This document shows, piece after piece, positions 13,057 to 29,642 of a stretch of DNA of 64,000 nt (position 1 is the stretch's first letter; each line of letters starts with the position of its first letter). The translations under genes were made by a program, and so were the position numbers. Below the pieces are notes generated by a model that ran no database searches, was not told where the DNA came from, and saw only the letters and a program-made list of their open reading frames with translations. The stretch comes from Paenarthrobacter aurescens (GTDB lineage: Bacteria > Actinomycetota > Actinomycetes > Actinomycetales > Micrococcaceae): NCBI RefSeq assembly GCF_041549525.1, contig NZ_CP157456.1, forward strand, positions 3,906,001 through 3,970,000, in the 5' to 3' direction.

Positions 13057-13090
13057 TTCCTGGGCGCGCCAGTTCCTTGGGCGGGCCCAG

Positions 13091-13135
13091 ATCGCTGGAA
13101 CGGTGCGTGTTCGCCGGAAGTCTCCAGCGATTTCG
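13091..13135. repeat. 45-bp intergenic repeat, copy A
   Basis: This intergenic segment matches 43353-43397 at about 37 of 45 positions, by eye. Both contain TCGCCGGAAGT-N-TCCAGCGAT, which can fold because CGCCGG pairs imperfectly with CCAGCG. It lies 35 bp after the molybdoenzyme stop. The two copies are 30 kb apart after unrelated genes. Confidence 0.65.
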
Positions 13136-13210
13136 GTGGCTTCCCCGCGTTCTCGCAGGCTTCCAGGTTCCTCGCCAGCCTGCCCCGCCCCGATTAGACT
13201 CGTTCCAATC

Positions 13211-13588
13211 ATGAGTATCCCGTCTTCATCCCCAGCCAACGTCCGAGTCGACGCCTGGCTGTGGGCGATCCGTGCTTACAAAACCCGCTCCGCTGCCACG
13301 GCCGCCTGCCGTGCAGGGCATATCCGCATCAACGGAAACCCGGTCAAGGCCTCGCAAAGCGTGATCATCGGCGACACCATCCGCGTCCGGGAATCCGGCT
13401 GGGAACGGATCCTGGAGGTCCGGCGGCTCATCGCCAAGCGCGTCGGCGCCGAAGCGGCCTCGCACTGCTTCACTGACCACACTCCCCCGCGTCCGGTTGC
13501 TCCCAAGTTGGGGCTCCCTCAACGCGACCGCGGGGCCGGCCGACCCACCAAGAAGGACCGCCGGGATATGGAGAAACTGCGGGGCTAG
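13211..13588 (+). CDS. hslR: S4-domain RNA-binding protein, HslR/Hsp15 family
   Basis: A 125-aa basic protein with an N-terminal S4 RNA-binding domain (about 10-70): VRVDAWLWAIRAYKTRSAA and CRAGHIRINGNPVKAS are typical of Hsp15. The family binds stalled free 50S subunits carrying nascent peptidyl-tRNA and helps recycle them. The C-terminal tail (GAGRPTKKDRRDMEKL) is basic, as in homologues. I start at ATG 13211; the open frame reaches back to 13103 but the additional residues are not conserved-looking. Single gene. Confidence 0.88.
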   Translation: MSIPSSSPANVRVDAWLWAIRAYKTRSAATAACRAGHIRINGNPVKASQSVIIGDTIRVRESGWERILEVRRLIAKRVGAEAASHCFTDHTPPRPVAPKLGLPQRDRGAGRPTKKDRRDMEKLRG

Positions 13589-13704
13589 CCTCCTGGTGCC
13601 CGCGACGACACTTATCCACAGGGCCCCGATTCTGACGTGATTCCTCCATGGCCCTCTGCTTAGACTGGCCGCCACACCGCCAAGCAGCTTCCGGGGAGCC
13701 TGTC

Positions 13705-15319
<1,615 letters not shown>

Positions 15320-15336
15320 CCGGACGGCCTCACGTA

Positions 15337-15428
15337 CCGCCACCACCCACTTCGAAGGCGGATCGCCCGGCGGACACCACGCAGGCGGCGAGTCCAGGCC
15401 CTTCAAGATTCAAAGTGGGTGGTGGAGG
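15337..15428. repeat. 20-bp inverted repeat with 52-base loop
   Basis: Arms at 15337-15356 and 15409-15428 pair at 18 of 20 positions (CCACCACCCACTT against AAGTGGGTGGTGG). It follows the PKD-like gene stop by 18 bp. The loop is too long for an ordinary terminator; it could be a regulatory structure or a relic of a small inverted insertion. Confidence 0.7.
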
Positions 15429-15457
15429 CTCATGAAGTCAGGGATCCATCGCCTTAA

Positions 15458-15497
15458 GTGGAGAAAGCACCAGTTCCGAAGAACCGATGCTTTCCAC
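15458..15497. terminator. Probable bidirectional terminator
   Basis: A strong hairpin between convergent genes: GTGGAGAAAGCA pairs with TGCTTTCCAC with one bulged base, and an inner GTTC-CGAA-GAAC tetraloop stem caps it. It lies 10 bp beyond the minus-strand DUF3817 gene stop. No T run follows on either side. Confidence 0.7.
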
Positions 15498-15507
15498 CGA
15501 TTGAAGC

Positions 15508-15969
15508 TTAGGAGAACCAGGTACCTGGAGGGCCCATGAACAACAGGAAGCTGAAGACGGCGCCCACGGCAACGAGGGTGACAACTACGGCAAGAATCGG
15601 GTTCCGAAGAACCCAGGCCTGGGCTTTCTCGAAGCCGCCCCGGGGTTCCTCCCCTCCAGCAGCCAGGCGCCAGTCGCCAGCCAGGAGTCCTCGGCGGTCG
15701 AGCGACTTCTCCGTGGGGATGGTGGCGTAGGGGATAACGGCTGAACCGATGGCGAGCAGGCCCGTCCGGGTGGACCACTTCTGGTTGATCCAAGTGAACG
15801 CAGCCGTCGCGGCATAGCAAAGGAAGACGAAACCGTGGATGCCACCGGCAATGCTCACACCAACATCGGTGGTGCGGGTGACGTACTTGAGGAACAGTCC
15901 GATCAACAGCAGCGTCCATGTCACGGCCTCGGCGAAAGCAACGGTACGGAACAAGGTGCGGGGCTGCAT
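15508..15969 (-). CDS. DUF3817-family integral membrane protein
   Basis: The 153-aa product starts at ATG 15969 and has about four hydrophobic segments: RTVAFAEAVTWTLLLIGLF, IHGFVFLCYAATAAF, LLAIGSAVIPYATI and AVVVTLVAVGAVFSFLLF. This arrangement and the conserved EA-T and HG-F-Y motifs fit DUF3817 proteins, found in actinobacteria next to diverse genes. A charged loop at about 95-120 separates the last helix. No biochemical role is known. The frame is open further upstream but the added residues are not membrane-protein-like. Confidence 0.8.
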   Translation of the reverse strand: MQPRTLFRTVAFAEAVTWTLLLIGLFLKYVTRTTDVGVSIAGGIHGFVFLCYAATAAFTWINQKWSTRTGLLAIGSAVIPYATIPTEKSLDRRGLLAGDWRLAAGGEEPRGGFEKAQAWVLRNPILAVVVTLVAVGAVFSFLLFMGPPGTWFS

Positions 15970-16155
15970 GGAAGTCCTCAGGTAGAGAGCGGGAGTCTCC
16001 TCCAATTTACCGTGACTGTAGAAATTCCCTGGTGTCAGGCCATGCAACCTTTAGAAGCAGCTGTGGTGGCCGCGACCCGAGAAGCCGCGGAAGACCGTCG
16101 TCGTGCGGGCCAAAAGATTGTCGGGCGTGACGCAGCAACCGCAGCAACCGCAGTG

Positions 16156-16770
16156 TCACGGCAGCGGGAGCGCCTCCCGGTTCCGGATCTGCGAGTCTCC
16201 GAATTCGATGGCCACTGGATCGATCTCCATCTCCGGCTCGTGGCGGGTGCGAGCCTTGCCCACCGCGATGTGGGGCAACCACCGGGGTGACCTGTAGCCG
16301 AGTGCCGGTGAGCTGAGAATGAAGTCGTCAATGTTGTCCAGGCCAAGATCATCAAGGAGTACGTGGAGGCCTTGAACCAACAGCGCCTGGTAGTCGTGAA
16401 CCTCCTGCGGCACGTCCACCTCAAGTCCCATCAGACGGCCGCCACCCAGAGGGATCAGCTTGTCCGACTTCCCAAGAAAACCCTGCAGCACCGGCAACTC
16501 GGTCAACCAACTGGCGATCTCCGGAAGTGTCTTCTCCGACGGCGACAACCCCTTGGTCCAGGCAGCAATGTCCCTGCCCAGGTCATCCAGAATGCCAATG
16601 TGCAGCAAGGTCATATGCAATCCCTGGGGCTTTCGCAGGGATTGGACGAACCGGTTCAGTCCCTCGTAGTCCGAAGGCCCAGCCCCTACGCGAAGGACGG
16701 GCACCTCCACAGTGATGCGGGCTTCATGAGGTTTGCTTCCATGGGAGACAACGGCCGTCATGGTTGCCAT
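16156..16770 (-). CDS. 2H phosphoesterase-like protein (LigT/2'-5' RNA ligase fold)
   Basis: The 204-aa protein has two spaced His motifs: HMTLLHIG near residues 52-59 and HIAVGKAR near 168-175, consistent with the HxT/S-phi pairs of 2H phosphoesterases, although the second has Ala in place of Thr/Ser. Such enzymes open 2',3'-cyclic phosphates or 2'-5' linkages in RNA or nucleotides. The Ala substitution may lower activity, so catalysis is unproven. I start at ATG 16770; ATG 16761 is also possible. It lies 82 bp downstream of a GIY-YIG-like gene on the same strand, near a restriction island. Confidence 0.6.
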   Translation of the reverse strand: MATMTAVVSHGSKPHEARITVEVPVLRVGAGPSDYEGLNRFVQSLRKPQGLHMTLLHIGILDDLGRDIAAWTKGLSPSEKTLPEIASWLTELPVLQGFLGKSDKLIPLGGGRLMGLEVDVPQEVHDYQALLVQGLHVLLDDLGLDNIDDFILSSPALGYRSPRWLPHIAVGKARTRHEPEMEIDPVAIEFGDSQIRNREALPLP

Positions 16771-16852
16771 TATGCGCCGAACGCACAGCGAGCGGGAGGC
16801 CGACGGAGGCACTCGGCTTCCGCCGTCGTACTGCTTGTAGCCGGCGCCGGGT

Positions 16853-17359
16853 TTACTTCTTTGTGCGGGCCTGAACAAGGTTGGCGAACGGAAGGCGTCC
16901 ATGGGCGGCCACGAAGCCGGCGTGATAGGCGGCCTCGGCTGCGTTGACCTCGGAAGCCGGGAATTCCTTCCACGCGATGATCAGATCCGAAGCGTCGCGG
17001 AGTTGCCAGATGAGCCGCGCATCCCACACCACAGTGGGCCGTCCGCGGCCGTAGTCAAGGAACTCCTGGATCTGTTTGCGGAGCCCGCGGTTGCCTTGGC
17101 TTCCAGCGCTGGCTTTGCCGATGTACAGCACCGAAGCTTCGGGCACCCATTCGGATTCCAGGGCGTCGCGTTTGAGCGAGGGGTCCTTTTTCTTGAACGT
17201 GCCGGCAGCGCTCTTGCTGAGGAACACGGGCTCAAACTCGGCGGGGCGAAGGATCGCGAAGACGCCGGGGCCTTGGGGAATCCTCATGGGATCGAGTTCG
17301 TCGAGGGGCCGGAATCCGGTGAACCCGTCCTCGGTGAGGGACTTTTTGGTGAAGAGCAT
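16853..17359 (-). CDS. GIY-YIG-like nuclease domain protein
   Basis: A 168-aa protein resembling a single GIY-YIG domain: GVFAIL (position of GIY, about 32-37), LYIGKAS (YIG, about 78-84), RGLRKQI (possible catalytic Arg, about 91) and a later Glu in VNAAEAAYHAG (about 140). A Lys-rich insert lies between the two core strands. Stand-alone proteins of this type occur in phage-defence and repair settings. It follows the 425-aa unknown gene by 11 bp and probably shares its transcript. Nuclease activity is inferred. Confidence 0.62.
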   Translation of the reverse strand: MLFTKKSLTEDGFTGFRPLDELDPMRIPQGPGVFAILRPAEFEPVFLSKSAAGTFKKKDPSLKRDALESEWVPEASVLYIGKASAGSQGNRGLRKQIQEFLDYGRGRPTVVWDARLIWQLRDASDLIIAWKEFPASEVNAAEAAYHAGFVAAHGRLPFANLVQARTKK

Positions 17360-17370
17360 GAATATAAGGA

Positions 17371-18648
17371 CTAACCCTTTTCAACTACGGAATCGGCAGA
17401 TGCCGGGTCATTTTCTGCATGGGCGTTTCTGCGGCCTTCGATGCCCTGCGCCACTTGGAGAATTCGGTCCTCAATGCCTCCACCGATTGCCTTGGGAGCA
17501 GCGGCGACGCCACCGGCAGCCGCAGTAACCGCCCCTGCTACCGCCTGGCCGGCCTGTTGTCCCAGGCTAAGTACAGATTGGTTCCATTTCGATCGCTCAA
17601 CGGCGCTCATTTCCGGCATGCCAAAGTTGGCGGCAAACACGGCCAAGAGCCTCTGCAGCTCCTCGACGGCGCCATATAGCTTGGGCATGTCAATGGGATT
17701 TGCGACCCGTGTAAGGGCGCTGACATTCACAGCTTTGGCGGCAACATCGGCAAGTCGCTGAAGCTTCGAACGGGTCATTTCCAGACGTGTGTCCTTGGCG
17801 GCGAACACATGTTTCACATGCGCCGTGTCCTTGAGCGTCGTTTCAGCGTGGACGATCTCCAATGAATCCAGCCGCACCGCATTCGTCAAAGTGACCGCCG
17901 TGATAATAAGCCAATGCTGAAGGTCTCCGTTGGCCGCTTTCTTGGCATTGGCCAGACGGACACTAAAATCCTTGGCGTCAAGCTCATCAGTGAGCGAATC
18001 GATGTGGTTGAGTGCAACAGCGTGGGCCTGGGCAAGACTTACTGCTTGGCCAGCCACCTGATCCCACAATGTACTGGTAATTGTGCCCGTTTCCTCAAAA
18101 TATCCGAACGCCTTATCGAGGATTTGTGTAGTACCTTGAATGTTGCCCATGGCCTCATGGCGGTTGTCACGGATGAGCACATCCACCTTGGCGTCAACCG
18201 ACTCCATCAACGTCTCAAGACTGTGAATGGCCGTGCGGATGGCGAGGCACGCCGCGAGCACGGGAAGGTTTCCTCCGGCTAAGGATTTGAGGGGCGAAGT
18301 CTTCACGAACTCCAGAACGGTGTCTATGCGACCGTCGGATGTACGAGCCAACCCCGCCACCACGCCGGGCTTACTTGCAGTTTGGCCGGCTAGTTCAATA
18401 TAGCGCTGGAACGACTCTGAAGTCATCGTGAACGCGTTGCCAGATAGTGCAGACGGTCCCGCTTCCTTCGCACCAGCCAAGCCTGAAGCTGCAGCCAACA
18501 TGTCTGCGACAGCAGAGCCCAACTTTGAGGTGGACGTCTCCGGGACGTCGATAACGCGGAACAACTCGGCGATCGCCGTGGGGTCACCCGCCACGAGGGC
18601 GGACTCTCCATCAACGCATATGGCGATTTCCGGGGCTTTTTCTTCCAT
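17371..18648 (-). CDS. Unknown helical protein upstream of a GIY-YIG-like gene
   Basis: From ATG 18648 the product is 425 aa; the frame extends to 18741. I recognise no domain. It begins with an acidic MEEKAPEIAICVDG region, followed by mainly helical, Ala-rich sequence with a hydrophobic segment near 130-150 (LPVLAACLAIRTAIH) and another Ala/Gly/Val-rich segment near 375-395 (GQAVAGAVTAAAGGVAAA), which could touch a membrane. The middle has coiled-coil-like Asp/Lys/Leu periodicity. Base composition is AT-richer than the flanking core genes. The gene is first of a likely three-gene operon and is divergent from a thermonuclease gene. Confidence 0.65.
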   Translation of the reverse strand: MEEKAPEIAICVDGESALVAGDPTAIAELFRVIDVPETSTSKLGSAVADMLAAASGLAGAKEAGPSALSGNAFTMTSESFQRYIELAGQTASKPGVVAGLARTSDGRIDTVLEFVKTSPLKSLAGGNLPVLAACLAIRTAIHSLETLMESVDAKVDVLIRDNRHEAMGNIQGTTQILDKAFGYFEETGTITSTLWDQVAGQAVSLAQAHAVALNHIDSLTDELDAKDFSVRLANAKKAANGDLQHWLIITAVTLTNAVRLDSLEIVHAETTLKDTAHVKHVFAAKDTRLEMTRSKLQRLADVAAKAVNVSALTRVANPIDMPKLYGAVEELQRLLAVFAANFGMPEMSAVERSKWNQSVLSLGQQAGQAVAGAVTAAAGGVAAAPKAIGGGIEDRILQVAQGIEGRRNAHAENDPASADSVVEKG

Positions 18649-18885
18649 AGCCACATCTTCACATATAGGTCTGACAGGACTGGTGCCTCTGCACTCGGTT
18701 ACCTCGATCGCGCCATTCTTGACGCGCTCACGGCGTAGCAATGAGGGAGAGCTTGCAGTTTCAAGTAATCTACATTTTCATCACTCTAAGTATTCGCATA
18801 AATAGGGGGACTATTTGCGTACCCAATTCCGGCTGCCCCACAGCCACCGTCCAACTCACGCTACTTCCACGAAAGGCTCTACACC
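18649..18885. other. AT-rich divergent intergenic region
   Basis: This 237-bp gap separates the minus-strand unknown gene from the plus-strand thermonuclease gene. It is visibly AT-richer than the core genome and should hold both promoters; no motif is decisive. The ribosome site of the thermonuclease gene (GAAAGG) is at 18870-18875. Confidence 0.4.
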
Positions 18886-19989
18886 GTGCGGAAGCTAGCA
18901 ATTGCCGCGGCCACTTCGGTGGTACTCGCGGCCACATCCTGGGCCGTCGCCACGGCAGCTAACGCCGATTCGGGAACTGTCGTTCGGGTGATTGACGGGG
19001 ACACCGTCGTCGTGTCCATTAACAACATCGATCAGACCATCCGTCTTTTGAACATCAATACGCCGGAAACCAAGGATCCGAACAAGCCCACGGAATGCCT
19101 GGGCCCAGAGGCGACGGACCATCTGGAAGAAGTCCTTCCGGTGGGCAGTAAGGTTCGCCTGGAGTTCGACGTCGAGCGCCATGACAAATACGGCAGAACT
19201 CTGGCAGGGGTCTTCAATGCCAGTAACAAGCTCGTCAATGCCGAAATCGCCCGCCGAGGGCTTGGCGTTCCAATGGTGGTAGGCGACAACCGAAAGTTCC
19301 TCCCTCCGGTTGAGGCCGCTTATCAGGAAGCCCGAACCGCCAAAGCCGGGCTGTTCGCCGAGACCATTGAATGCACACTCCCGGCACAGCTGGCGGCAGC
19401 ATCGGAAGCACTGACGGCCGCCGAAAACGCCGCGCCAGCAACCACCTCCGCAGCAGCTGGCACCACCGCAACAGGCTTGGCGGCCGCTCTTGTCACGGCC
19501 AAAGCCGCTCGCGATCTACTTTCCGCAGCCAGGGATACCGAGCAATCAATCGTCTGGGCGGCCTACGAGTCAGTTGAGGCAGGGTCAAAACTGGCCGCCC
19601 TGACAACACGGATCACTCAAGCAGAAAACACGTTGACCAAGGTGAAGGATCAGCAAACATCACTCGCGGCTGCGGAAAAGAAGGCCGAGGAGGAGCGCGT
19701 GGCCGCTGCCGCCCGGGCTGAAGCTGACAGGAAGGCCGCTGAGGAAGCCGCAGCAGCTGCAAAAAAGGCTGCCGACGAAGCTGCCGCAGCAGAGCAGGCA
19801 CGGGCCGCTGCAGCAGCAGCCGAAGCTGAGCGGATCCGCAACATCCCGGCTGCACCGCCAGTTCAGCAGTATGCTCCGCCGGCGCAGCAGTACGTGCCAC
19901 CGGCCCCGGTAGCTCCGGCGAACCCAGCGCCCGGCTACACCGGCCCCCGGTGCTACGCGCCTGGAGGGAAAACCTGGCGTCCCTGCTGA
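18886..19989 (+). CDS. Secreted thermonuclease-family nuclease with Ala-rich coiled coil and Pro-rich tail
   Basis: The GTG-started 367-aa protein has a signal peptide ending near ATAANA (about 27), then a staphylococcal nuclease-like domain (about 29-160). Candidate active-site residues are Asp37 and Asp39 (RVIDGDT), Arg53 (TIRLLNINTPE), Glu61 and Arg104 (DKYGRTLAG). Residues about 170-285 are Ala/Glu/Lys-rich and probably coiled coil. The tail is Pro/Gln/Tyr-rich and ends in a short Cys-x10-Cys motif. Family members cut DNA and RNA outside the cell. It faces away from the unknown trio and is followed by a perfect terminator. Confidence 0.85.
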   Translation: MRKLAIAAATSVVLAATSWAVATAANADSGTVVRVIDGDTVVVSINNIDQTIRLLNINTPETKDPNKPTECLGPEATDHLEEVLPVGSKVRLEFDVERHDKYGRTLAGVFNASNKLVNAEIARRGLGVPMVVGDNRKFLPPVEAAYQEARTAKAGLFAETIECTLPAQLAAASEALTAAENAAPATTSAAAGTTATGLAAALVTAKAARDLLSAARDTEQSIVWAAYESVEAGSKLAALTTRITQAENTLTKVKDQQTSLAAAEKKAEEERVAAAARAEADRKAAEEAAAAAKKAADEAAAAEQARAAAAAAEAERIRNIPAAPPVQQYAPPAQQYVPPAPVAPANPAPGYTGPRCYAPGGKTWRPC

Positions 19990-19996
19990 CGCCCTC

Positions 19997-20038
19997 AAGC
20001 AAGCCCGGCACCGCAGATCTGCCGTGCCGGGCTTGCTT
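19997..20038. terminator. Strong terminator between thermonuclease gene and hsdM
   Basis: A perfect 15-bp inverted repeat, AAGCAAGCCCGGCAC against GTGCCGGGCTTGCTT, with a 12-base loop, 7 bp after the thermonuclease stop. It separates that gene from the restriction block, so hsdM should have its own promoter. Confidence 0.85.
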
Positions 20039-20085
20039 CGCACGAGAGTCAGTGAGTGTCCGCCCCTGCCACTAAACTCGCATGA

Positions 20086-21582
20086 GTGATCACAGGTGAA
20101 ATTAAGTCCCAAGTAGACAAAGTCTGGAATACGTTCTGGAGCGGCGGTATCTCTAACCCTCTGGAAGTCATCGAACAGATCACCTACCTCTTGTTCCTCA
20201 AGCGCCTCGACGAGAACCACACACGGGCAGAGGCACAGGCCAACCTCCTGGGCGAGCCGATTGAGAACGCGATGTTCCCCGAAGGCGTCGATCCTCAGGG
20301 CCGCCCCTACTCGGACCTGCGATGGTCGAAGTTCAAAGATTTCGGCCAAACAGAGATGTTTACAGTCTTCCAGCAGAGCATCTTCCCGTTCCTCCGCACT
20401 GAGCTGACCAAACAGTCCAATGGGGAGGACTCCACGTACAGCCATCACATGAAGGATGCGCAGTTCAAGATCCCGAACGCGGGTGTCTTGAAGCAGGTGG
20501 TGGATGTCATTGACTCCATCAACATGGAGGGTCGCGACACCAAGGGCGATCTCTACGAGTACATGTTGTCGAAGCTGGCGTCGGCGGGTACCAACGGACA
20601 ATTCCGAACCCCGCGGCACATCATCGACCTCATGGTCGCGATGACAGCACCCCAGCCGCTCGAAGCCATCTGTGACCCAGCCGCCGGCACCTGCGGCTTC
20701 CTGGTTCAGGCCGGCGAATACCTCCGCACGAACAACGCCAACCTCCTCACCAATGACGAGACGAGCAAGTTCTTCCACCACGAGCAGTTCCACGGTTTCG
20801 ACTTCGACTCCACCATGCTTCGGATCGGTTCCATGAACATGCTCCTCCACGGGGTCGAGAACCCGGACGTCTCCTACCGCGATTCACTTGCCGACCTGCA
20901 CTCCATCGAGGAAGAAAAATACAACGTCATCCTCGCCAATCCGCCATTCGCCGGCAGCTTGGACTACGAGAATGTGTCGAAGGAGCTGCTGAACGTCGTC
21001 AAAACGAAGAAGACCGAACTCCTCTTCCTGGCACTGTTCATCAAGCTGCTCAAGCCAGGCGGCCGGGCCGCAGTTATCGTTCCTGACGGCGTCCTCTTCG
21101 GCTCCACCGGCGCACACAAGTCCCTTCGCAAGACACTGGTGGAGGGACACAAGCTCGACGCCGTCGTCAAACTTCCGTCCGGCGTCTTCAAGCCCTACGC
21201 CGGTGTCTCCACGGCCATCCTCTTCTTCACAAAGACCAACTCCGGCGGCACGGACAACGTCTGGTTCTACGACGTAAAGTCCGACGGCTTCAGCCTCGAC
21301 GACAAACGCACGCCGCTCGGCTCTTCCGACCTTGAGGACGTCCTCTCACGCTGGAATCAGCGCACGACGGCGGAACTTGAGCGGGCGCGCACGGAGCAGT
21401 CCTTCTGTGTTCCGCTTTCGGAGATCGTGGCGAACGACTACGACCTTTCACTCAACAGGTACAAGGAGATCGAGTACGAAGAGGTCGCCCATGCTGCCCC
21501 GGAGGAAATCTTGGCAGCGCTCGATGAGCTCGAGGCCGAGATCACTGAGGGAATGAACGAGCTGCGGGAGCTGCTGAAGTGA
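20086..21582 (+). CDS. hsdM: Type I restriction-modification methyltransferase subunit HsdM
   Basis: The 498-aa N6-adenine methyltransferase subunit has the HsdM N-terminal helical domain (about 5-140), SAM-binding motif I DPAAGTCGF (197-205) and catalytic NPPF (285-288). With HsdS it methylates the recognition site; with HsdR it cuts unmethylated DNA. The start is GTG at 20086. TAAACT at 20073-20078 lies 7 bases before the GTG and no ribosome site is visible, so the message may be leaderless. It overlaps hsdS by 4 bp. An out-of-frame ATG at 20082 is ignored. Confidence 0.93.
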   Translation: MITGEIKSQVDKVWNTFWSGGISNPLEVIEQITYLLFLKRLDENHTRAEAQANLLGEPIENAMFPEGVDPQGRPYSDLRWSKFKDFGQTEMFTVFQQSIFPFLRTELTKQSNGEDSTYSHHMKDAQFKIPNAGVLKQVVDVIDSINMEGRDTKGDLYEYMLSKLASAGTNGQFRTPRHIIDLMVAMTAPQPLEAICDPAAGTCGFLVQAGEYLRTNNANLLTNDETSKFFHHEQFHGFDFDSTMLRIGSMNMLLHGVENPDVSYRDSLADLHSIEEEKYNVILANPPFAGSLDYENVSKELLNVVKTKKTELLFLALFIKLLKPGGRAAVIVPDGVLFGSTGAHKSLRKTLVEGHKLDAVVKLPSGVFKPYAGVSTAILFFTKTNSGGTDNVWFYDVKSDGFSLDDKRTPLGSSDLEDVLSRWNQRTTAELERARTEQSFCVPLSEIVANDYDLSLNRYKEIEYEEVAHAAPEEILAALDELEAEITEGMNELRELLK

Positions 21583-22751
21583 AGGCCGCGAAGCTAGCCG
21601 ATGTCTGCGACATCATTATTGGCAGAACGCCGTCGCGAAGTGAGCCACGGTTCTGGGCAGGCGACCTGCCATGGCTATCAATTGCAGACATGAATCAGGG
21701 CAGAAACCTCCTACGCACCAAAGAACGAGTTACATCTGATGCGATGCAGGAATGCAAACTTCGAATAGTTGAGGCCGGGACGGTACTCATGAGTTTCAAA
21801 CTGTCCATCGGTAAAGTCGGGATAGCCCGAACCCGCATGGCAACCAATGAAGCCATCGCAGCTCTTCCTGTGAAGGACTCCTCTCGCCTGGATTCTACGT
21901 ACCTCTCTCGTGTTTTGGAGTCAATGGATCATACGGGCGCAGCAAATCGCGCTGCGATGGGTGGGACCCTCAACAAGGCGTCGCTGGCGGCCATCAGGAT
22001 TCCAATTCCTCCACTAGAGGAGCAACGGCGGATTGCGGCGGTTTTGGACAAGGCCGACGAACTTCGCGCCAAGCGCCGCCGCGCCATCGCCCACCTGGAT
22101 GCGCTCATCCAGTCGATCTTCCATTCCATGTTCGGAGACCCCAGCAAAGCTGAAGATGGTCAGCGGCTGGAGGAACTTTTGGCGTCGATCGATAGCGGAA
22201 CCAGCCCGGTCTCGGAAGACCGTCCTGCCACCCCCGATGAATGGGGCATTCTCAAGGTTAGCGCTGTCACAAGCCAGACCTACATCGATTCCGAAAATAA
22301 AGCTCTGATCAGTTCGAAACCGAAAACCGCTAACGAGGTTTGTCCGGGGGACGTGCTGTTCACTAGAAAGAACACGCCGAAGCTGGTTGCGGCCGTGGCC
22401 ATAGTCCGTCGCACACGACCTAGGCTCCTTATTCCGGATCTTGTGTTTAGGTTGAACATCCGAGACCGGACACAGCTTGACCCTGAGTACCTTCAATCCG
22501 TGATGGCTTACCCAACTCAAAGAGCATCCGTTCAGCGTCTGGCCGGTGGATCCGCTGCTTCAATGTCAAACATTTCTAAGAGCAAGCTGGCAACTGTCAA
22601 AATCCCAGTCCCCCCACTCGAACTGCAGCAGACCTTCGCAACCCGAGTTGCCGCCGTCGAGCGTTTGAAGGAAACTCACCGCAAGCACCTGGCGGAACTG
22701 GACGCGCTCTTCGCGTCGCTCCAAAACCGCGCGTTCAAAGGAGAACTCTAG
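21579..22751 (+). CDS. hsdS: Type I restriction specificity subunit HsdS
   Basis: The 390-aa DNA-recognition subunit contains two target-recognition domains, about 1-145 and 190-345. Each is followed by a conserved helical spacer: LEEQRRIAAVLDKADELR at about 147-165 and LELQQTFATRVAAVERLK near 347-365. It therefore should recognise a bipartite site. The GTG start overlaps the hsdM stop as GTGA. Composition in both recognition domains is AT-richer than the spacers, as expected for exchangeable domains. The recognition sequence cannot be predicted. Confidence 0.92.
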   Translation: MKAAKLADVCDIIIGRTPSRSEPRFWAGDLPWLSIADMNQGRNLLRTKERVTSDAMQECKLRIVEAGTVLMSFKLSIGKVGIARTRMATNEAIAALPVKDSSRLDSTYLSRVLESMDHTGAANRAAMGGTLNKASLAAIRIPIPPLEEQRRIAAVLDKADELRAKRRRAIAHLDALIQSIFHSMFGDPSKAEDGQRLEELLASIDSGTSPVSEDRPATPDEWGILKVSAVTSQTYIDSENKALISSKPKTANEVCPGDVLFTRKNTPKLVAAVAIVRRTRPRLLIPDLVFRLNIRDRTQLDPEYLQSVMAYPTQRASVQRLAGGSAASMSNISKSKLATVKIPVPPLELQQTFATRVAAVERLKETHRKHLAELDALFASLQNRAFKGEL

Positions 22752-23692
22752 TGACCGAATCAGCGGCCCAGGCGCCCTCGACCGAGGTGCCGATTTGGCC
22801 AGCGCTCATCGTGCCCGTTCTCCAAGCCCTATCTGGTGGACAGACGCTTCACCGGAAGGAGCTCTTCCATCAAGCTGCGGATCAAGCCGGTCTGTCGGAA
22901 GGCGCTCGCGAGGAGACCCTGAACTCTGGCGGACTACGTTACGAGCAACGTATGGGCTGGGTCCTAAGCCACCTGACACGGGCAAGCTGGATCGACCGTC
23001 CCGTAAAGGGGTATTACTGCATCACGGATGCAGGCAGGCAGTGGCTTCTGGACAATCCTCAGGGAATCAACTACAGCCAGGCACACACGATCTTTGCGCA
23101 GTATTGGCCGAAAGCCGATGGTCAAGTCGCACCCACGCAGGTTGCGCAAGAGACCGGCCTCGCAGCTACGGACGAACTGGAACCAGTGGAGCAGATCGAG
23201 GACGCGATAAATCGCATCCAAGACGAAGTGGGAGCATCGCTGCTCAGACGGCTGCACGAAGAACATCCGGACTTCTTCGAAGACGCTGTGGTGAAGCTGC
23301 TGCTGAAGATGGGATACGGGGGTGCTGAGCAGCGGGGTCGACGTATCGGTGGCACCGGTGACGGTGGCGTTGACGGGGTTATAGACCAAGATGCGCTTGG
23401 GTTGGATCGCGTCTACATCCAGGCCAAACGATACAGCCCAGACAACGCCGTTGGCCGCGAAGCCATCCAAGCATTCGTAGGGGCGCTCCACGGCTTTTCT
23501 GCTTCCAAGGGCGTCTTCATCACCACCAGCAGGTTTTCACAAGGCGCGAAGGATTATGCAGGCAGTGTTGGCACCCGGACAATTCTGATTGACGGCGCTC
23601 GCCTTGTCAGTCTCATGATCAAGTACCGGGTCGGAGTGCAGGTGAAGCAGAGCTACGACGTCGTGGAACTGGACGAAGACTTCTTCGAATAA
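22751..23692 (+). CDS. Mrr-like restriction endonuclease
   Basis: The 313-aa protein has an N-terminal winged-helix Mrr_N-like domain (about 15-100) and a C-terminal Mrr catalytic domain (about 165-310). The PD-(D/E)xK motif is visible as GGTGDGGVDGVI followed by VYIQAKRY at about 205-228. Mrr enzymes cut modified DNA (type IV restriction). The GTG start shares one base with the hsdS stop, so it is translated with the type I block. In this position it might instead be an accessory nuclease of the type I system; that is inference. Confidence 0.87.
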   Translation: MTESAAQAPSTEVPIWPALIVPVLQALSGGQTLHRKELFHQAADQAGLSEGAREETLNSGGLRYEQRMGWVLSHLTRASWIDRPVKGYYCITDAGRQWLLDNPQGINYSQAHTIFAQYWPKADGQVAPTQVAQETGLAATDELEPVEQIEDAINRIQDEVGASLLRRLHEEHPDFFEDAVVKLLLKMGYGGAEQRGRRIGGTGDGGVDGVIDQDALGLDRVYIQAKRYSPDNAVGREAIQAFVGALHGFSASKGVFITTSRFSQGAKDYAGSVGTRTILIDGARLVSLMIKYRVGVQVKQSYDVVELDEDFFE

Positions 23693-23702
23693 ATCAAACA
23701 CT

Positions 23703-23770
23703 GTCGCCGTACGGCAACACATGCTAAAGTCGGCGTACGGCGACATTCGCAGAAGTTGCCGTACGGCGAC
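23703..23770 (+). promoter_or_regulatory. Three tandem HipB-type operators upstream of hipBA
   Basis: Three near-identical 16-bp palindromes with core CCGTACGG or CGTACG lie at 23703-23718, 23729-23744 and 23755-23770. Consensus is GTYGCCGTACGGCRAC. Their starts are exactly 26 bp apart, about 2.5 helical turns. They fill the whole gap between the Mrr-like gene and hipB, so HipB (or HipAB) very likely autoregulates here. A TAAAGT at about 23725-23730 between the first two sites could be the -10 element. Confidence 0.85.
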
Positions 23771-23781
23771 AGGAGCTTCCA

Positions 23782-24006
23782 TTGCGCACAGTCCGCGAGG
23801 CCGGGCCCCTTGTACGTGAGCTGCGCGAAGAGCGAGGTTGGTCTCAAGCCGAGTTGGCCCGCCGCGCCAGCGTCTCACGCACCTTTGTCATCGACCTTGA
23901 ATCCGGTAAGGCGTCGGTGGAGACGTCGAAGTTCATGGACGTTTTCCAAGCTCTCGGTTTCGAGATCGCCATACGTGACAGCGAAACGGGCGCGATACGT
24001 TGGTGA
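23782..24006 (+). CDS. hipB: HipB-like antitoxin, XRE-family repressor
   Basis: A 74-aa helix-turn-helix protein: LVRELREERGWSQAELARRASVSRTFV at about 10-36 contains the HTH, in line with Cro/C1-type repressors, followed by a short C-terminal strand for dimer contacts. HipB-type antitoxins bind and inhibit the HipA kinase and repress their own operon. The start is TTG at 23782 with AGGAG five bases upstream. Its stop overlaps the hipA start as GTGA. Directly upstream are three palindromic operators. Confidence 0.88.
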   Translation: MRTVREAGPLVRELREERGWSQAELARRASVSRTFVIDLESGKASVETSKFMDVFQALGFEIAIRDSETGAIRW

Positions 24007-25295
24007 ATACCCGAGCTCTTGATGTCTTTATGGACGGGACGCTCTGCGGCCGCGTTGAACAGTCGCCGTCCGGAAATCTGACATTCCGCTACGACCCCGA
24101 GTATCAGGCGGTCGCGAATTCAACCCCGCTTTCGCTGTCCATGCCGCTGGCAGCCACCCTCCATAAGAAGCGCAGCGTGCTCCCCTTCCTGCAGGGACTC
24201 CTGCCCGACAGTGAAGGTGCCCTCCAGACCATTGCCCGACGGTTCCGGGTGTCTCCCTCGAACCCCTTCGCAATCCTCGAACATATTGGTGCCGATGTAG
24301 CTGGTGCGCTGCAATTCATGACGCCCGGTGCCGGCTCTTCTGATGGCACCCTCTCAAGAGGAGCTGTGCAGCCGGTTTCGGATGCAGACGTGGCGGAGAT
24401 GCTGGATCATGTGGTGACTGAATACAAGGACGGCACGCCCTACGATGACTCAGCAGGACGTTTCAGCCTTGCCGGGGCACAGCCAAAAATTGCCTTGCAT
24501 CAACTTCCGAACGGCAAATGGGCCGTACCCGAAGACGCCACTCCCACCACGCACATCCTAAAACCGGCGGCAGGCACCTTCAGTCGCTTGGACGTGGTGG
24601 AACAGCTGACCATGAGGGCAGCAGCTTTCCTGGGGCTCGGAGTGGCCAAGTCCGAACTCGCCCGCATCGGTGAATGGGACGTATTTGTGACACGTCGCTA
24701 TGACCGCCAGGAAGTGGACGGAACGTGGCGCCGCATCCATCAAGAGGACTTTTGCCAGGCGTTGAGCGTTTCTCCAGCCAAGAAATACCAGCACCGTGAC
24801 GGCGGGCCGGGGGCGAGCGATATGGCCGCCCTTGTCCGATCGCTTCCTTTTGAAGCGGACCGCCGGGCAGCAGGCGAAGGGCTGTACCGGGCCTTCGTTT
24901 TCAACACCGTGGCCGGTTGCACCGACGCACACGCCAAAAACTACTCCGTGCTCCTCAACGGCAGCAGGGCCCAACTGTCCCCGCTCTACGACCTCGCTAC
25001 CTACGCCCCGTATTGGGATGCGGCGTCGAACATCGACTTAGCCATGAGTGTAAAAGGCGAGTACACGCTACAGAAAATCAGCAAGCAGATGCTGGTATCA
25101 ACTGGCACGCAATTCGGCGTTGATGCAGAAGCGGCCAGGGAAATAGTTGAACACTATTGTGGGGGCATCGTGGAGGCATTTGAAGCTGCCGGGGAAGAGC
25201 TGAAATCCCAGCTGGGATCTCTGCCGAAAGTCGCCGAAGACACTCTTACGAAAGTACAACTGCTGCCACTGGTCGAAGCCACCAATCTGAAATGA
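24003..25295 (+). CDS. hipA: HipA-like serine/threonine kinase toxin
   Basis: A 430-aa HipA-family kinase. The N-terminal subdomain (about 5-105) has VFMDG and SLSMPL motifs. The ATP-binding loop region SLAGAQPKIAL is near 155-165. The catalytic Asp and Asn sit in GCTDAHAKNYSVLL near 305-318, and LSPLYDLATYAPY near 325-338 is the metal-binding DxD/DFG-like segment. In E. coli, HipA phosphorylates glutamyl-tRNA synthetase and causes persistence; the target here is unknown. The GTG at 24003 gives a 4-bp overlap with hipB. All key residues look intact. Confidence 0.9.
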   Translation: MNTRALDVFMDGTLCGRVEQSPSGNLTFRYDPEYQAVANSTPLSLSMPLAATLHKKRSVLPFLQGLLPDSEGALQTIARRFRVSPSNPFAILEHIGADVAGALQFMTPGAGSSDGTLSRGAVQPVSDADVAEMLDHVVTEYKDGTPYDDSAGRFSLAGAQPKIALHQLPNGKWAVPEDATPTTHILKPAAGTFSRLDVVEQLTMRAAAFLGLGVAKSELARIGEWDVFVTRRYDRQEVDGTWRRIHQEDFCQALSVSPAKKYQHRDGGPGASDMAALVRSLPFEADRRAAGEGLYRAFVFNTVAGCTDAHAKNYSVLLNGSRAQLSPLYDLATYAPYWDAASNIDLAMSVKGEYTLQKISKQMLVSTGTQFGVDAEAAREIVEHYCGGIVEAFEAAGEELKSQLGSLPKVAEDTLTKVQLLPLVEATNLK

Positions 25296-25365
25296 AGCTT
25301 AAACAGTCACAGTCTCATGATTGACTACTTCCAGGACATCGGAACAACGGATCGGAGACGGCTGC

Positions 25366-28300
25366 ATGGGGGCAGTTACCAGCAACTTTGGGTTCATGCT
25401 GGGCGAGTGGCCGGAGTTGGCCCAGCAAGCACGCCGGGCCGAACAATTTGCCCGGGTGGATCCCCGCGCTTCCGTGTTCTACGCCCGCTACACCATCGAA
25501 CGCATTGTTGAGTGGCTGTACCAAGTGGAGCCAGGGTTGGTGACCCCCTACAAGGATGACCTCAACGCCCTCCTGAACGAGCCCACCTTCAAGAATCTTG
25601 TGGGCGGCCCCATAGCCAACAAGCTCACGATCATTCGCAAAGCCGGCAACAATGCGGTCCACAATTCCGTTGGCCCCACCATCCAAGGCGCTGAGCTCGT
25701 GCTCCGCGAGCTGCACCACGTTTGCTATTGGCTCGCCAGAAATTACGCCAAAACCGGTAGCCAGCTGCCGCCATCGTTGGTTTTCGATGCCGCAGCCCTG
25801 GCACCGAAGCCAAAAGCTCCGGTCCAGCAGCAGTCACCCGAAGAGCTCCAGGCACTCGAAAGCCAGCTCAAGGCAAAAGACGAGGCGTTGGCGCAAGCAG
25901 CTGCCGACTCCGCGGAACTCAAGGCCCAGCTGGAGATTCTGCAGGCCGAAGTTGCCGAGGCCAAGAAGCAGAACCAGACGGTCCCCGACCACCACGACTA
26001 TGACGAAGCCCTGACCCGCAGGCACCTCATTGATCTGGAACTCAACGAGGCGGGATGGCCGCTCAGTAACACAGAGGACCGCGAGTTCAAGGTCGACACG
26101 ATGCCCACGACTAGCGGCACCCTCAACGGCGTCGGATACGTGGATTACGTACTGTGGGGCGCTGACGGACTGCCTCTAGCTGTGGTCGAAGCGAAGCGGA
26201 CCACTAAGGATCCACATGTGGGAAAGCAACAGGCCAAGCTGTACGCCGACAGCCTGGAACGTCGCTACGGCCGCCGCCCCGTCATCTATTACACCTCCGG
26301 TTACGAGACATGGATTTGGGACGACACCATGTACCCGGAGCGCGCGGTGCAGGGATTCCACACACGCGATCAGCTCCAACTTCTCGTCAACCGCAGGCAG
26401 AGCCGAAAGCCCCTGGCTGAACAGGCAATCGACAACTCGATTGTCGAACGTCCGTACCAGCACAACGCTATCCGGGCCGTCACGGAAGCCTACGAGAAAG
26501 ACTTCGAGCGCAAGGCTCTAGTAGTCATGGCGACCGGCACGGGCAAGACGCGCACCGTCGTCGCACTCGCCAAGCTCATGCAGGAAGCCAACTGGGCCAA
26601 GCGGGTTTTGTTCTTGGCGGACCGGGTAGCCCTGGTCAAGCAAGCAGCGAATGCCTTCAAGGCCCACCTGCCGGGTTCCAGCCCTGTCATTCTGGGCTCA
26701 GGTGATGAAGCGGACAGCCGCATTCACGTGGCTACATATCCGACCATGATGAACCTCATCAACGTAACCGAAGGAAAGCTGGGCCAGCGGACCTTTGGCA
26801 TTGGCCACTACGACCTCATCATCGTCGACGAAGCCCACCGCTCGATCTACCAAAAGTACAGGGCCATCTTCCAGTACTTTGATTCACTCCTCATCGGGCT
26901 GACAGCCACGCCACAGTCAGAAGTGGACCGCAACACCTACACCCTTTTCGGCATCGAAGACAATGTTCCCACGTTCGCCTACGAGCTCAGCGAGGCCATC
27001 GAGGCCGGATATCTCGTGCCGCCGCGAGTTGTGCCGGTTCCGCTGAAATTTCCCGACCAAGGCATCTCGTACGAGGACCTCCCAGAGGCTGAGAAAGAAC
27101 AGTGGGACGAGCTCGAATGGGACGAAGACGGCGAGATCCCGGACTCGGTCGATTCAAGCGTCATCAATACATGGCTCTTCAACGCAGACACAGTGGATAA
27201 GGCGCTGGAAGTCCTCATGACGCGTGGTCACAAGGTTGCCGGCGGGGATCGCTTAGGCAAGACCATCATCTTCGCCAAGAACAACCGGCACGCGGAGTAC
27301 ATCGCCAAACGCTTCGACAAGAACTACCCGGCGTACAAAGGCCAGTTTGCTCGCGTCATCACCTATCAGGTGAACTACGCGCAGAATCTCATCGACCAGT
27401 TTTCGACTACCGAGAGCAACCCCCAAATCGCAATCTCGGTGGACATGCTGGACACCGGCGTGGACGTCCCGGACGTCGTCAATCTGGTGTTCTTCAAAAT
27501 GGTCAGATCCAAGACCAAGTTCTGGCAGATGGTGGGACGCGGTACCCGTCTTCGCCCGGAACTGTACGGGCCGGGCGAAGACAAGAAAGACTTTTTCATC
27601 TTCGACCTCTGCCGCAATGCCGAGTTTTTCAACGCTGGTATGCCCAGCAACGAAGGGTCTTTGGGCAAGTCACTCGCAGAGACCACTTTTGCGGCGCGCG
27701 TGCAGCTCCTGCAGACTTTCACCGACCTCCAATGGGATCCTCAAGCGCCTGTGGTTGCCGACCTTCGGAATACCCTGAAGCACACAGTTGACCGGCTTCC
27801 ACTCGACAACTTCCTCGTCAAGCCGGCCCGCAAATGGGTAGACCGGTTCACCGAGGAAGCAACGTGGACATCCCTGGCTGCTGAGGACTACCAAGCTTTG
27901 CAAACCGAGATCGCCAGGCTCGCTTCCATCGGTGCACCCACTGACACGGAAGAGGCTAAGCGCTTCGACTACCTCATGCTCCAAACAGAGTTGGCATCGC
28001 TGCAAGGGTCGGCGGTGGGGCCGTTCCGGATAAAGATCCAAACAATCGCCTCCGCCCTCCAAGACCAACAGAGCATCCCAGCCATTGCCGCTCAATTGCC
28101 GTTGCTGGATACCATCCTCCATGACGACGAATGGGAATCAGTTTCTTTGGAATGGCTGGAAGAAATTCGACGCCGGCTCCGGGGATTGGTCCATCTCATC
28201 GAGAAGCGGAAACGCAAGGTGGTCTACACAAACTTCCAGGACGAGCTCGGCGTGCTTGAAGAAGTCGAACTGGCTGGGGCAACAAATGGCTTCGTGAATC

Positions 28301-28764
28301 TCCCTCGTTACAAAGAGAAAATGCGTTCGTACTTGGCGCAATATGAGGAACACGCAACCATCCAACGACTCCGGCGTAACAAGCAACTCACGGCCTTGGA
28401 CCTCGCCGAGCTTGAACGCATTCTCCTGGAAAGCGGCTTGGGTTCACTCGAAGACTTGAACCGTGCCGCCAATGACGGACTCGGTCTCTTTGTCCGTTCC
28501 CTGGTTGGTTTGGACCGCGAAGCCGTTGAGGAAGCGTTGTCAGAGTTTGTGGCTGGTACTACGCTCACGGCCCAGCAGCTTAACTTCCTCAAGGTTCTGA
28601 CCAGTCACCTGATGGAAAACGGAAAGGTCAGCCCTAAAGCCTTGTTCAAGTCCCCGTATGACGAGCTGGCCCCGTCCGGCCCGGGTGCGCTGTTCGGTGG
28701 TGAAAAGATCGGGCAGTTGATCAGCATTCTCCGCTCCATTGAGAACCACGCGAGGGTTGGCTGA
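25366..28764 (+). CDS. hsdR: Type I restriction endonuclease subunit HsdR (EcoEI-like, DUF4145 N-terminus)
   Basis: The motor and nuclease subunit of the type I system. An N-terminal DUF4145-like helical region (about 5-130) and a short coiled coil (about 155-205) precede the nuclease core, where GYVDYVLWG and LAVVEAKR give the D-ExK pattern. Walker A (ATGTGKT) and the DEAH box (VDEAHRS) lie about 390 and 488 residues in. The HsdR C-terminal helical region follows. ATG 25366 has GGAG upstream; a TTG at 25321 would add 15 residues. hsdR is separated from hsdS by mrr and hipBA, an unusual order. Confidence 0.92.
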   Translation: MGAVTSNFGFMLGEWPELAQQARRAEQFARVDPRASVFYARYTIERIVEWLYQVEPGLVTPYKDDLNALLNEPTFKNLVGGPIANKLTIIRKAGNNAVHNSVGPTIQGAELVLRELHHVCYWLARNYAKTGSQLPPSLVFDAAALAPKPKAPVQQQSPEELQALESQLKAKDEALAQAAADSAELKAQLEILQAEVAEAKKQNQTVPDHHDYDEALTRRHLIDLELNEAGWPLSNTEDREFKVDTMPTTSGTLNGVGYVDYVLWGADGLPLAVVEAKRTTKDPHVGKQQAKLYADSLERRYGRRPVIYYTSGYETWIWDDTMYPERAVQGFHTRDQLQLLVNRRQSRKPLAEQAIDNSIVERPYQHNAIRAVTEAYEKDFERKALVVMATGTGKTRTVVALAKLMQEANWAKRVLFLADRVALVKQAANAFKAHLPGSSPVILGSGDEADSRIHVATYPTMMNLINVTEGKLGQRTFGIGHYDLIIVDEAHRSIYQKYRAIFQYFDSLLIGLTATPQSEVDRNTYTLFGIEDNVPTFAYELSEAIEAGYLVPPRVVPVPLKFPDQGISYEDLPEAEKEQWDELEWDEDGEIPDSVDSSVINTWLFNADTVDKALEVLMTRGHKVAGGDRLGKTIIFAKNNRHAEYIAKRFDKNYPAYKGQFARVITYQVNYAQNLIDQFSTTESNPQIAISVDMLDTGVDVPDVVNLVFFKMVRSKTKFWQMVGRGTRLRPELYGPGEDKKDFFIFDLCRNAEFFNAGMPSNEGSLGKSLAETTFAARVQLLQTFTDLQWDPQAPVVADLRNTLKHTVDRLPLDNFLVKPARKWVDRFTEEATWTSLAAEDYQALQTEIARLASIGAPTDTEEAKRFDYLMLQTELASLQGSAVGPFRIKIQTIASALQDQQSIPAIAAQLPLLDTILHDDEWESVSLEWLEEIRRRLRGLVHLIEKRKRKVVYTNFQDELGVLEEVELAGATNGFVNLPRYKEKMRSYLAQYEEHATIQRLRRNKQLTALDLAELERILLESGLGSLEDLNRAANDGLGLFVRSLVGLDREAVEEALSEFVAGTTLTAQQLNFLKVLTSHLMENGKVSPKALFKSPYDELAPSGPGALFGGEKIGQLISILRSIENHARVG

Positions 28765-29642
28765 TGTCCGTCACACTGGCCCACGTCCTGGCCGGCGTGG
28801 GGGCTGAGCTGGCTCCGCCAGTTTCCCTGGATGATATCCACGTGATACGCCACTCATTCAGGCCGAATGACGAGGCAGCGCTCCGCGGACCTGAGGACCT
28901 GACGGATGAGCGCGTCGCGGCTTACACACGAGAACAAGACATCTCTTCTCGTCGCTTCCCGGCTGATCCTCCACGGCTCTGGGTGATACTCATCGCCGAC
29001 GGAAAGAATCGATCGCGGCTCTGGGGAACCTTTGAAAACCACGGAGAACTGGTGCATGAGCGCACGGAAGCATGCCGGTACTTCGATCTGAGACCGGTCG
29101 AATTCCTGGCTCCTCTCAAAGACCGCCTCGTCATTGACTGGGATAACCCCCGCAGTTGGCACCGGAGCGCCAGTTCAGAGAGCGCAGCCAGGATGCAGGT
29201 GGTTGAGATCGCGGACCGCGATAAGGTCCCGTTCCCCGGTTTTGACGGCGTGCTGCTCACACATCACCAACTGCAAGAGATGGTCATCGATCCGCGCTAC
29301 ACGGACTGGCGGGCAGCCCTTGCCGAGGTCCAGGGAATTTACCTGATCACCGACTCCAGTAATGGGAAACAGTATGTAGGCAAGGCCGACGGCTCCGAGC
29401 GGATTCTTGGCCGTTGGACGAGCTATGCCCGCGACGGTCACGGCGGGAACGTGGCGCTCCGTGAGCTGGCGTATGAAAGCGTAGGCGAAGCAAAGAGGGT
29501 CAAGACAGACCATGCGCGTCACTTCGTTTTCAGCCTTCTCCGTGTGTTTGGGCCCAGTACGCCTTCGTCCGAGGTGAACACAGCCGAGTCGCATTACAAG
29601 GCTGCCCTCATGACTCGAAAATTTGGGCTCAACCGAAACTGA
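28764..29642 (+). CDS. GIY-YIG nuclease family protein at end of restriction block
   Basis: The 292-aa protein starts at an ATG sharing one base with the hsdR stop (TGATG). Residues about 1-180 form a domain I do not recognise, with LWVILIADGKNRSRLWGTF and a later Asp/Trp-rich part. The C-terminal GIY-YIG domain begins near 190: GIYLITDSSNGKQYVGKA holds both core strands, and NTAESHYKAAL near 275 supplies the metal-binding Glu. It is probably an accessory nuclease or repair factor of the restriction operon. Neighbouring systems sometimes carry such a gene; its role is unknown. Confidence 0.78.
   Translation: MSVTLAHVLAGVGAELAPPVSLDDIHVIRHSFRPNDEAALRGPEDLTDERVAAYTREQDISSRRFPADPPRLWVILIADGKNRSRLWGTFENHGELVHERTEACRYFDLRPVEFLAPLKDRLVIDWDNPRSWHRSASSESAARMQVVEIADRDKVPFPGFDGVLLTHHQLQEMVIDPRYTDWRAALAEVQGIYLITDSSNGKQYVGKADGSERILGRWTSYARDGHGGNVALRELAYESVGEAKRVKTDHARHFVFSLLRVFGPSTPSSEVNTAESHYKAALMTRKFGLNRN

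Follow-up and report, generated by a model that had tools for sequence, protein, structure and literature searches.

HipBA between hsdS and hsdR in a chromosomal type I restriction block of Paenarthrobacter aurescens: a candidate cassette slot

When a toxin-antitoxin pair is found within a restriction locus, the usual explanation is either stabilisation or simple clustering. What such a pair does directly ahead of a restriction gene is the question raised by a block of seven open genes on the forward strand of a 64,000-nucleotide stretch of DNA from Paenarthrobacter aurescens, a soil-dwelling member of the Arthrobacter group (contig NZ_CP157456.1, positions 3,906,001 to 3,970,000; hereafter the window). 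The block (20086-29642) encodes HsdM, HsdS, Mrr, HipB, HipA, HsdR and the GIY-YIG-like protein UzuA, bearing out a first-pass annotation of the DNA that had described an Mrr-like nuclease and a HipBA pair flanked by hsdS and hsdR, with a GIY-YIG protein overlapping the hsdR stop. Overlaps of 1-4 bp had also been proposed, and these hold for hsdM-hsdS (4 bp), hsdS-mrr (1 bp) and hsdR-uzuA (1 bp), while hipB and hipA overlap by 7 bp. The genes preceding hsdR form two packed groups, hsdM-S-mrr and hipB-A, with an 89-bp gap carrying an operator array between them. The gap before hsdR can be read as the cassette slot of a chromosomal defence block, in which HipBA is a long-standing occupant serving as a second line behind restriction and hsdR is read from the hipBA promoter, a reading to which we assign an even chance. 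The anatomy, recurrence, palindromes, joint divergence, cassette exchange and scars on which it draws are read from the sequences compared, and restriction and HipBA are probably linked rather than mere neighbours.

HsdR proteins of the window's kind were searched at E <= 1e-50 in 198 genomes of the genus and were found in 26. These gave 26 hsdR loci (the window and L050-L074), in which genes were mapped with a simple open reading frame (ORF) caller and BLASTP and family names were taken from libraries; three HsdR candidates were scored per genome, and further copies may be missed. hipBA lies directly ahead of hsdR in nine of the 26 (G000, which is the window, G061, G023, G070, G207, G134, G034, G102 and G211); the gene order thus recurs in other genomes and is no chance insertion confined to a single strain. 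The full order with Mrr and UzuA is repeated only in G061, since G023 and G070 are without Mrr, G207, G134, G034 and G102 are without both Mrr and UzuA, and G211 carries Mrr and no UzuA. In all nine embedded loci hipBA is open and the kinase motifs are present, the HipA tail of G134 deviating after about residue 417.

An HsdR tree of 25 rows, from which the truncated G161 was omitted and in which G102 and G202 are represented by one piece each, contains two sister clades, the window being among the 16 members of one and the other having nine. All 16 loci of the window's clade have something in the gap between hsdS or mrr and hsdR, which in nine of them is HipBA. The other occupants differ. G072 and G032 carry a HipA-family kinase gene followed by a gene for a HIRAN protein (PADLOC PDC-M03A/B; L062:8534-10131 and L063:6119-7716), and the G032 slot also holds a VapBC-like PIN / Phd-YefM pair on the minus strand (L063:7871-8520). 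The slot of G200 (L058:5953-11192) contains a fragment of a PDC-M03A kinase together with foreign genes (MFS, radical SAM, LGT), those of G013 and G190 a HigB-like protein (Pfam E 0.0015 and 0.0004, below the cut-off) with a helix-turn-helix (HTH) protein, that of G117 a NYN protein (HEC-09) and that of G202 a 213-aa ORF without an assigned family, at a locus where hsdM and hsdR are broken. By eye, the PIN / Phd-YefM pair of G032 adjoins what appears to be an incomplete further copy of the hsdR leader. It may also be noted that the binding of DNA ends by HIRAN would suit a sensor of restriction products.

Remains of hipBA persist in three of these slots. G072 still has three palindromes, residues 1-29 of HipB and the tail of HipA; in G032 a single palindrome is left together with the HipA tail, and in G013 two weak palindromes with residues 41-74 of HipB. 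Broken hipBA in relatives, which the first-pass annotation had named as an argument against its proposal, is therefore found in part, in these fossils, although the three slots are each filled by another cassette today. No hipBA remains were found in the slots of G200, G117, G190 and G202, and old occupancy is thus not demonstrated for all. Taken alone, the HsdR tree would require at least two label changes, that is, two independent entries of HipBA; this was rejected as less simple than one old occupancy with later displacement, because the fossil-bearing G072 and G032 are the nearest HsdR-tree relatives of G211. Based on this pattern, hipBA looks like an old, exchangeable cassette, neither a lock on the block nor impossible to lose.

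The losses run in the other direction as well. In G094, homology to the window extends from 23701 to 25384 and resumes at 28766; hsdM, hsdS and hsdR have been lost, the hsdR leader and about six codons are left, and hipBA and uzuA are retained. No comparable hsdR scar was seen in G189 or G106, which carry hipBA at the same site and which, like G094, are absent from the genus HsdR matches. In G102 hsdR is split by an ISL3-family element (L056:13360-14800) with an 8-bp target duplication, and the adjoining hipBA is open; an intein in this HsdR was considered and rejected, the 1.4-kb insert carrying an ISL3 transposase gene and having the 8-bp duplication at its flanks. The proposal of the first-pass annotation that HipBA enforces retention of the block finds no support, with hsd lost beside a kept hipBA (G094), hsdR split beside an open hipBA (G102) and hipBA reduced to a fossil in G072, G032 and G013.

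Divergence of the genes is consistent with a shared history of hipA and hsdR. In seven undamaged loci of the window's closest clade (21 non-independent pairs, G211 omitted), synonymous divergence (dS) of hipA follows that of hsdR with r = 0.991 and a mean difference of 0.03, as against r = 0.637 and a mean difference of 0.18 for hsdM versus hsdR over the same pairs. The genes are under purifying selection, with median ratios of nonsynonymous to synonymous divergence (dN/dS) of 0.047 for hsdM, 0.023 for hipB, 0.098 for hipA and 0.050 for hsdR in eight loci; these make 28 pairs, a number reduced for hipA and hipB by dropping those whose dS was out of range. For this set G134 HipA was cut ahead of its altered tail, and G102, G094, G189, G106, G067 and G170 are not included. 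The kinase motifs are kept in 13 of 13 HipA copies, the broken HipA of G170 being omitted both from this count and from the HipA tree. With G067 outside, that tree shows an unresolved three-way split of G211, G189 with G106, and G094 with eight other embedded copies, and for this reason it is silent on whether the embedded or the free arrangement came first.

Three operator-like palindromes spaced by 26 bp lie upstream of hipB (23702-23719, 23728-23745 and 23754-23771). The array is present in 14 of 14 hipBA loci, with or without hsd, and has four copies in G067 and G170. In the interval between palindromes 1 and 2 the window has TGCTAAAGT (23722-23730, forward strand), found at this place in 12 of the 14 hipBA loci, with TGTTACTGT in the other two; read by eye, these are candidate extended -10 boxes. 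No further palindrome site with three or fewer mismatches was found in the 4.36 Mb genome of the window, and a HipB regulon beyond the hipB promoter was rejected on this ground. A reversed control pattern gave eight chance matches per strand in the genome, so single sites are meaningless and the evidence lies in the spaced, conserved triplet.

The 70-bp interval between hipA and hsdR (25296-25365, forward strand) forms the right edge of the slot and carries a conserved hsdR leader (CATGATTGACT ... CGGAG). Its motif CRTGRTTGACT (25316-25326 in the window), about 45 bp ahead of the start, is kept across the window's hsdR clade whichever cassette fills the slot, and the leader can therefore be assigned to hsdR. 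The start of hsdR is more likely the ATG at 25366, behind CGGAG and the leader conserved in relatives, than the TTG at 25321. A separate hsdR promoter within the leader (TTGACT, 25321-25326) was considered and appears unlikely, as no -10-like box was seen by eye at 16-19 bp and the promoter scan called none. Since hipA stops at 25295, hsdR probably starts at 25366 and no terminator-like site was called in the window on the forward strand from hipB through hsdR, a shared hipBA-hsdR transcript reading through the 70-bp gap is likely, and hipBA is probably co-transcribed with hsdR.

E. coli HipA phosphorylates glutamyl-tRNA synthetase, stopping translation. By extension, HipB of the window would occupy all three palindromes covering the hipBA promoter, from which hsdR would be read in addition to read-through from hsdM-S-mrr. 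On phage infection or host shut-off the antitoxin would fall, upon which, by analogy with E. coli HipBA and the precedents discussed below, the HipA kinase would stop translation and release of the hipBA promoter would raise the supply of HsdR; the resulting growth arrest may give restriction time to clear the DNA. A HipBA that may respond when restriction fails, as the first-pass annotation suggested, would fit this scheme. In E. coli, HipB is reported to be degraded by Lon and to act in autorepression (PMC3874152). A more far-reaching version holds that the slot is dedicated to growth-arrest modules whose state hsdR senses by being coupled to a toxin-antitoxin promoter, loss of the antitoxin both arresting translation and raising HsdR, and that selection keeps some module in place, so that a kinase/HIRAN or RelE-type (HigB-like) pair replaces a decayed hipBA; we regard it as rather unlikely.

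Several observations weigh against a slot in which HipBA serves restriction. The gap holds no whole gene in seven of the nine sister-clade loci (G174 with an Mrr fragment), so this kind of hsdR needs no partner there; the filled gaps of that clade carry a GmrSD protein in G104 (HEC-06) and unassigned ORFs in G078. hipBA has decayed in three relatives whose slots now carry another cassette, as described above. The HipA family (E <= 1e-60) occurs in 14 of 206 genomes of the genus, comprising the nine embedded copies, three copies without hsd at the window's site (G094, G189 and G106) and two at other places (G067 and G170); HipBA therefore exists independently of these restriction genes, and as the same palindromes are found at the loci without hsd, they did not evolve for hsdR. 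The consensus promoter scan called nothing upstream of hipB, and PADLOC does not list the HipBA pair of the window as a system, HipA giving weak PDC-M03A matches alone. Beyond the genus, a class sample of 226 genomes with 75 HipA_C places (E <= 1e-12) and 108 HsdM_N places (E <= 1e-8) placed HipA_C within 10 kb of HsdM_N at one of the 108, the window itself, in lists compared by eye and on draft contigs that can hide neighbours; the next-closest pairs on the same contig are about 19 kb (G724) and 21 kb (G056) apart. A widespread HipA-hsd association was accordingly rejected, and HipBA beside hsd looks like a lineage trait, not a rule. In a phylum sample of 14 HsdR places including the window, 12 of the 13 others were examined (the partial G585 was omitted) and among the ORFs of these 12 loci HipA was never the best match of the query set. 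Likewise, no HipA annotation was present in four plasmid loci out of 39 with an HsdR match, in gene tables that are incomplete. As side observations, the phylum locus L086 has a HigB-like/HTH pair upstream of hsdM, outside the slot, and L080 a GmrSD-like gene.

The main rival explanation is passive clustering, by which an insertion hot-spot at the side of a FadR-like gene gathers unrelated cassettes and hipBA, hsd and uzuA are independent of each other. Fourteen of the 26 hsdR loci do adjoin the same FadR-like gene as the window, and elsewhere this site is empty (G033 and G008, where a homologue of the window gene at 16853-17359 adjoins FadR), holds hipBA alone (G189, G106) or hipBA with uzuA (G094), or has a distant HipBA family (HipA 26% identical) placed divergently beside the FadR-like gene (L103, L109, L119 and L124, no hsd being seen within the 1.5 kb flank). 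That uzuA is mostly away from hsd and that 107 of the 108 HsdM_N places of the class have no HipA_C within 10 kb point the same way. However, HipBA precedes hsdR at a second chromosomal site too, in G211, whose flanks are common to G072, and fossils are found at both sites; moreover, hipA and hsdR diverge in step with hsdM following less closely, and the slot is filled throughout the clade of 16. We judge passive clustering possible, though less likely than not.

The two remaining rivals each assign HipBA a role towards its neighbours. As an addiction module, HipBA would kill or arrest cells losing the block and so retain the restriction genes; type II pairs of this sort can cause addiction, and hipBA has survived the loss of hsd in G094 and is still open next to the split hsdR of G102. 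Yet this is the pattern of a hipBA keeping itself, not its neighbours, hipBA has itself been lost in G072, G032 and G013, and its confinement to 14 of 206 genomes of the genus also argues against this role, which appears quite doubtful. Alternatively, HipB might chiefly be a controller of hsdR in the manner of type II C proteins, delaying hsdR after transfer to a new host so that methylation comes first and leaving the toxin secondary. The HTH gene with its own palindromes does lie upstream of the R gene, hipA intervening, there is no such site upstream of hsdM, and G072 retains the palindromes and the start of hipB though most of hipBA is gone; matches to PADLOC Control_protein are weak (1e-05). 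A C-protein parallel for a type I system is drawn in the RptR paper (PMC12255303). Against this, the palindromes are identical at hipBA loci without hsd, the sister-clade hsdR loci mostly have nothing in the slot, and the intact kinase motifs of the 13 HipA copies (again without the broken G170) show that the toxin has been kept too, making a mainly regulatory HipB very unlikely.

Toxin-antitoxin genes in the hsdS-hsdR gap are already known; HipBA at this position, with palindromes ahead of hsdR and a relay of cassettes, was not found in the literature searched, and no description of HipBA between hsdS and hsdR was recognised in those open-licence papers, which is a weak absence. DarTG2 is reported to lie between hsdS and hsdR of a type I system of enteropathogenic E. 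coli (EPEC), and the authors consider the hsdS-hsdR site a potential recombination hot-spot for defence systems (PMC12255303). The EPEC DarTG2/RptR island shares with the present block a toxin-antitoxin in this gap and an autorepressor with three palindromes (PMC12255303). In the window, by contrast, the pair is HipBA, and the palindromes belong to HipBA and lie mid-block, ahead of hipB-hipA-hsdR rather than ahead of hsdM; the block also includes Mrr and UzuA, and in relatives an hsdR scar and hipBA fossils document exchange. Of the features of an RRDM-like island, a toxin-antitoxin between hsdS and hsdR is present, whereas rptR (79 aa) is not found directly upstream of hsdM; an SNase-like gene ending at 19989 is located there, and the 96-bp gap (19989 to 20086) is too short for a 79-aa gene.

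Other systems share single features with the block. The E. coli immigration control region (hsdRMS, mrr, mcrBC) has Mrr beside hsd genes; in the window Mrr stands directly behind hsdS, ahead of the toxin-antitoxin pair. PrrC is an anticodon (tRNA) nuclease regulated by a restriction protein, whereas the HipA of the window is a kinase presumably held by HipB, and no sign of contact between HipA and Hsd proteins was noted, no test being aimed at it. PrrC / EcoprrI is described as a translation-blocking effector tied to type I restriction (PMC3874168), and MqsRAC is reported to work together with McrBC (PMC10783111). In hipIN, the HipI kinase is paired with a HipS-like/HIRAN antitoxin, HipN, and HIRAN domains bind DNA ends (PMC8262856). 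Its order (PADLOC PDC-M03A/B) resembles that of the slot pair of G072 and G032, a Hip-kinase gene followed by a HIRAN gene, and the resemblance belongs to these relatives, the HipS-like part aside; it differs from the window pair in having the kinase first and HIRAN second with no HTH antitoxin. With regard to Uzume, the UzuA match is nearly whole-protein and the difference lies in its attachment to an hsd block.

All genes of the block are on the forward strand, and in HsdM, HsdR, Mrr and HipA the domains and the motifs examined are intact. A complete type I restriction-modification set is encoded, with methyltransferase, target-recognition, nuclease and helicase domains. hsdM (20086-21582) encodes the type I N6-adenine methyltransferase subunit (N6_Mtase 1.4e-66, HsdM_N 2.7e-16, PADLOC MTase_I 1.6e-198; motifs DPAAGTCG and NPPF), and hsdS (21579-22751) the specificity subunit with two target-recognition stretches (two Methylase_S matches; Specificity_I 6.8e-88), HsdS being strongly divergent among loci (29-52% identity over the matched part). 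hsdR (25366-28764) encodes the restriction and translocase subunit (ResIII, HSDR_N, EcoEI_R_C, DUF4145; REase_I 6.6e-173; GTGKT, DEAH and D...EAK). The antitoxin and presumed autorepressor gene hipB (23782-24006), directly upstream of hipA and provided with the operator-like sites, has HTH_31 and HTH_3 domains and a couple_hipB match (3.2e-17) of 62.2 bits, below the cut-off of 71.65. The predicted Ser/Thr kinase toxin gene hipA (24000-25295) has the Couple_hipA (2.6e-25) and HipA_C (5e-50) domains and the catalytic motifs FSLAGAQPK, DAHAKN and PLYDL, and aligns with E. coli HipA, whose structure is known (2wiu, 1.3e-37).

The Mrr-like type IV restriction endonuclease gene (22751-23692) combines Mrr_N (5.6e-20) and Mrr_cat (6.2e-34) with an mREase_IV match (6.4e-78) and the nuclease motif GVDG...QAK. 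Mrr is found in two of the eight loci of the window's closest clade, and based on its domains it could widen the range to modified DNA, as had been proposed in the first-pass annotation. The last gene, uzuA (28764-29642), matches the PADLOC UzuA profile of Uzume at E 1.4e-147 over residues 2-292. A GIY-YIG nature of UzuA is likely, each support being weak: a GIY-YIG Pfam match at E 0.01, below the cut-off, an invariant motif in 21 sequences (GIY, YVG, R217 and E275), and best PDB fold matches of the model to the I-TevI GIY-YIG domain at E 0.027 and probability 1.00, with none at E <= 0.001. The model has a mean pLDDT of 73.9, with residues 227-248, part of the GIY-YIG domain, below 50. uzuA lies directly beside hsdR in one of 30 uzuA loci (L016), several loci being cut by contig ends; the overlap of uzuA and hsdR therefore looks incidental, and uzuA seems a separate addition to the block. 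At two further uzuA loci, distant relatives of the hsd genes with 24-30% identity are found at a distance of about 2 kb (L032) and 7 kb (L035). At L032, in another genus, hsdR, hsdS and hsdM of this distant kind (12775-17850) lie on the opposite strand about 2 kb from the UzuA gene. Partial or broken UzuA matches in L010, L011, L012, L014, L015 and L044 suggest frequent gain and decay of Uzume.

Two window genes on the hsdM side of the block were also observed near the hot-spot of relatives. One (16853-17359) encodes a 168-aa protein with GIY-YIG-like residues by eye and no Pfam match up to E 5; in several relatives, among them the ones whose site is empty, it flanks the hot-spot. The other (17371-18741) encodes a 456-aa protein for which Pfam, PADLOC and NCBIfam gave no match; it turns up again close to the hot-spot (the L060 and L064 copies being 60% identical to it) and has a relative, 22% identical, near the type I locus L088 of a genome outside the class.

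Altogether, one chromosomal site presents a natural series that runs from the empty site through hipBA, hipBA with uzuA, and hsd with hipBA and with or without mrr and uzuA, to hsd with a fossil hipBA and another cassette. This series separates, partly by sequence, the ideas usually applied to toxin-antitoxin pairs in restriction loci, and it supplies ready-made strains for testing whether a restriction gene is expressed from the promoter of a toxin-antitoxin pair.

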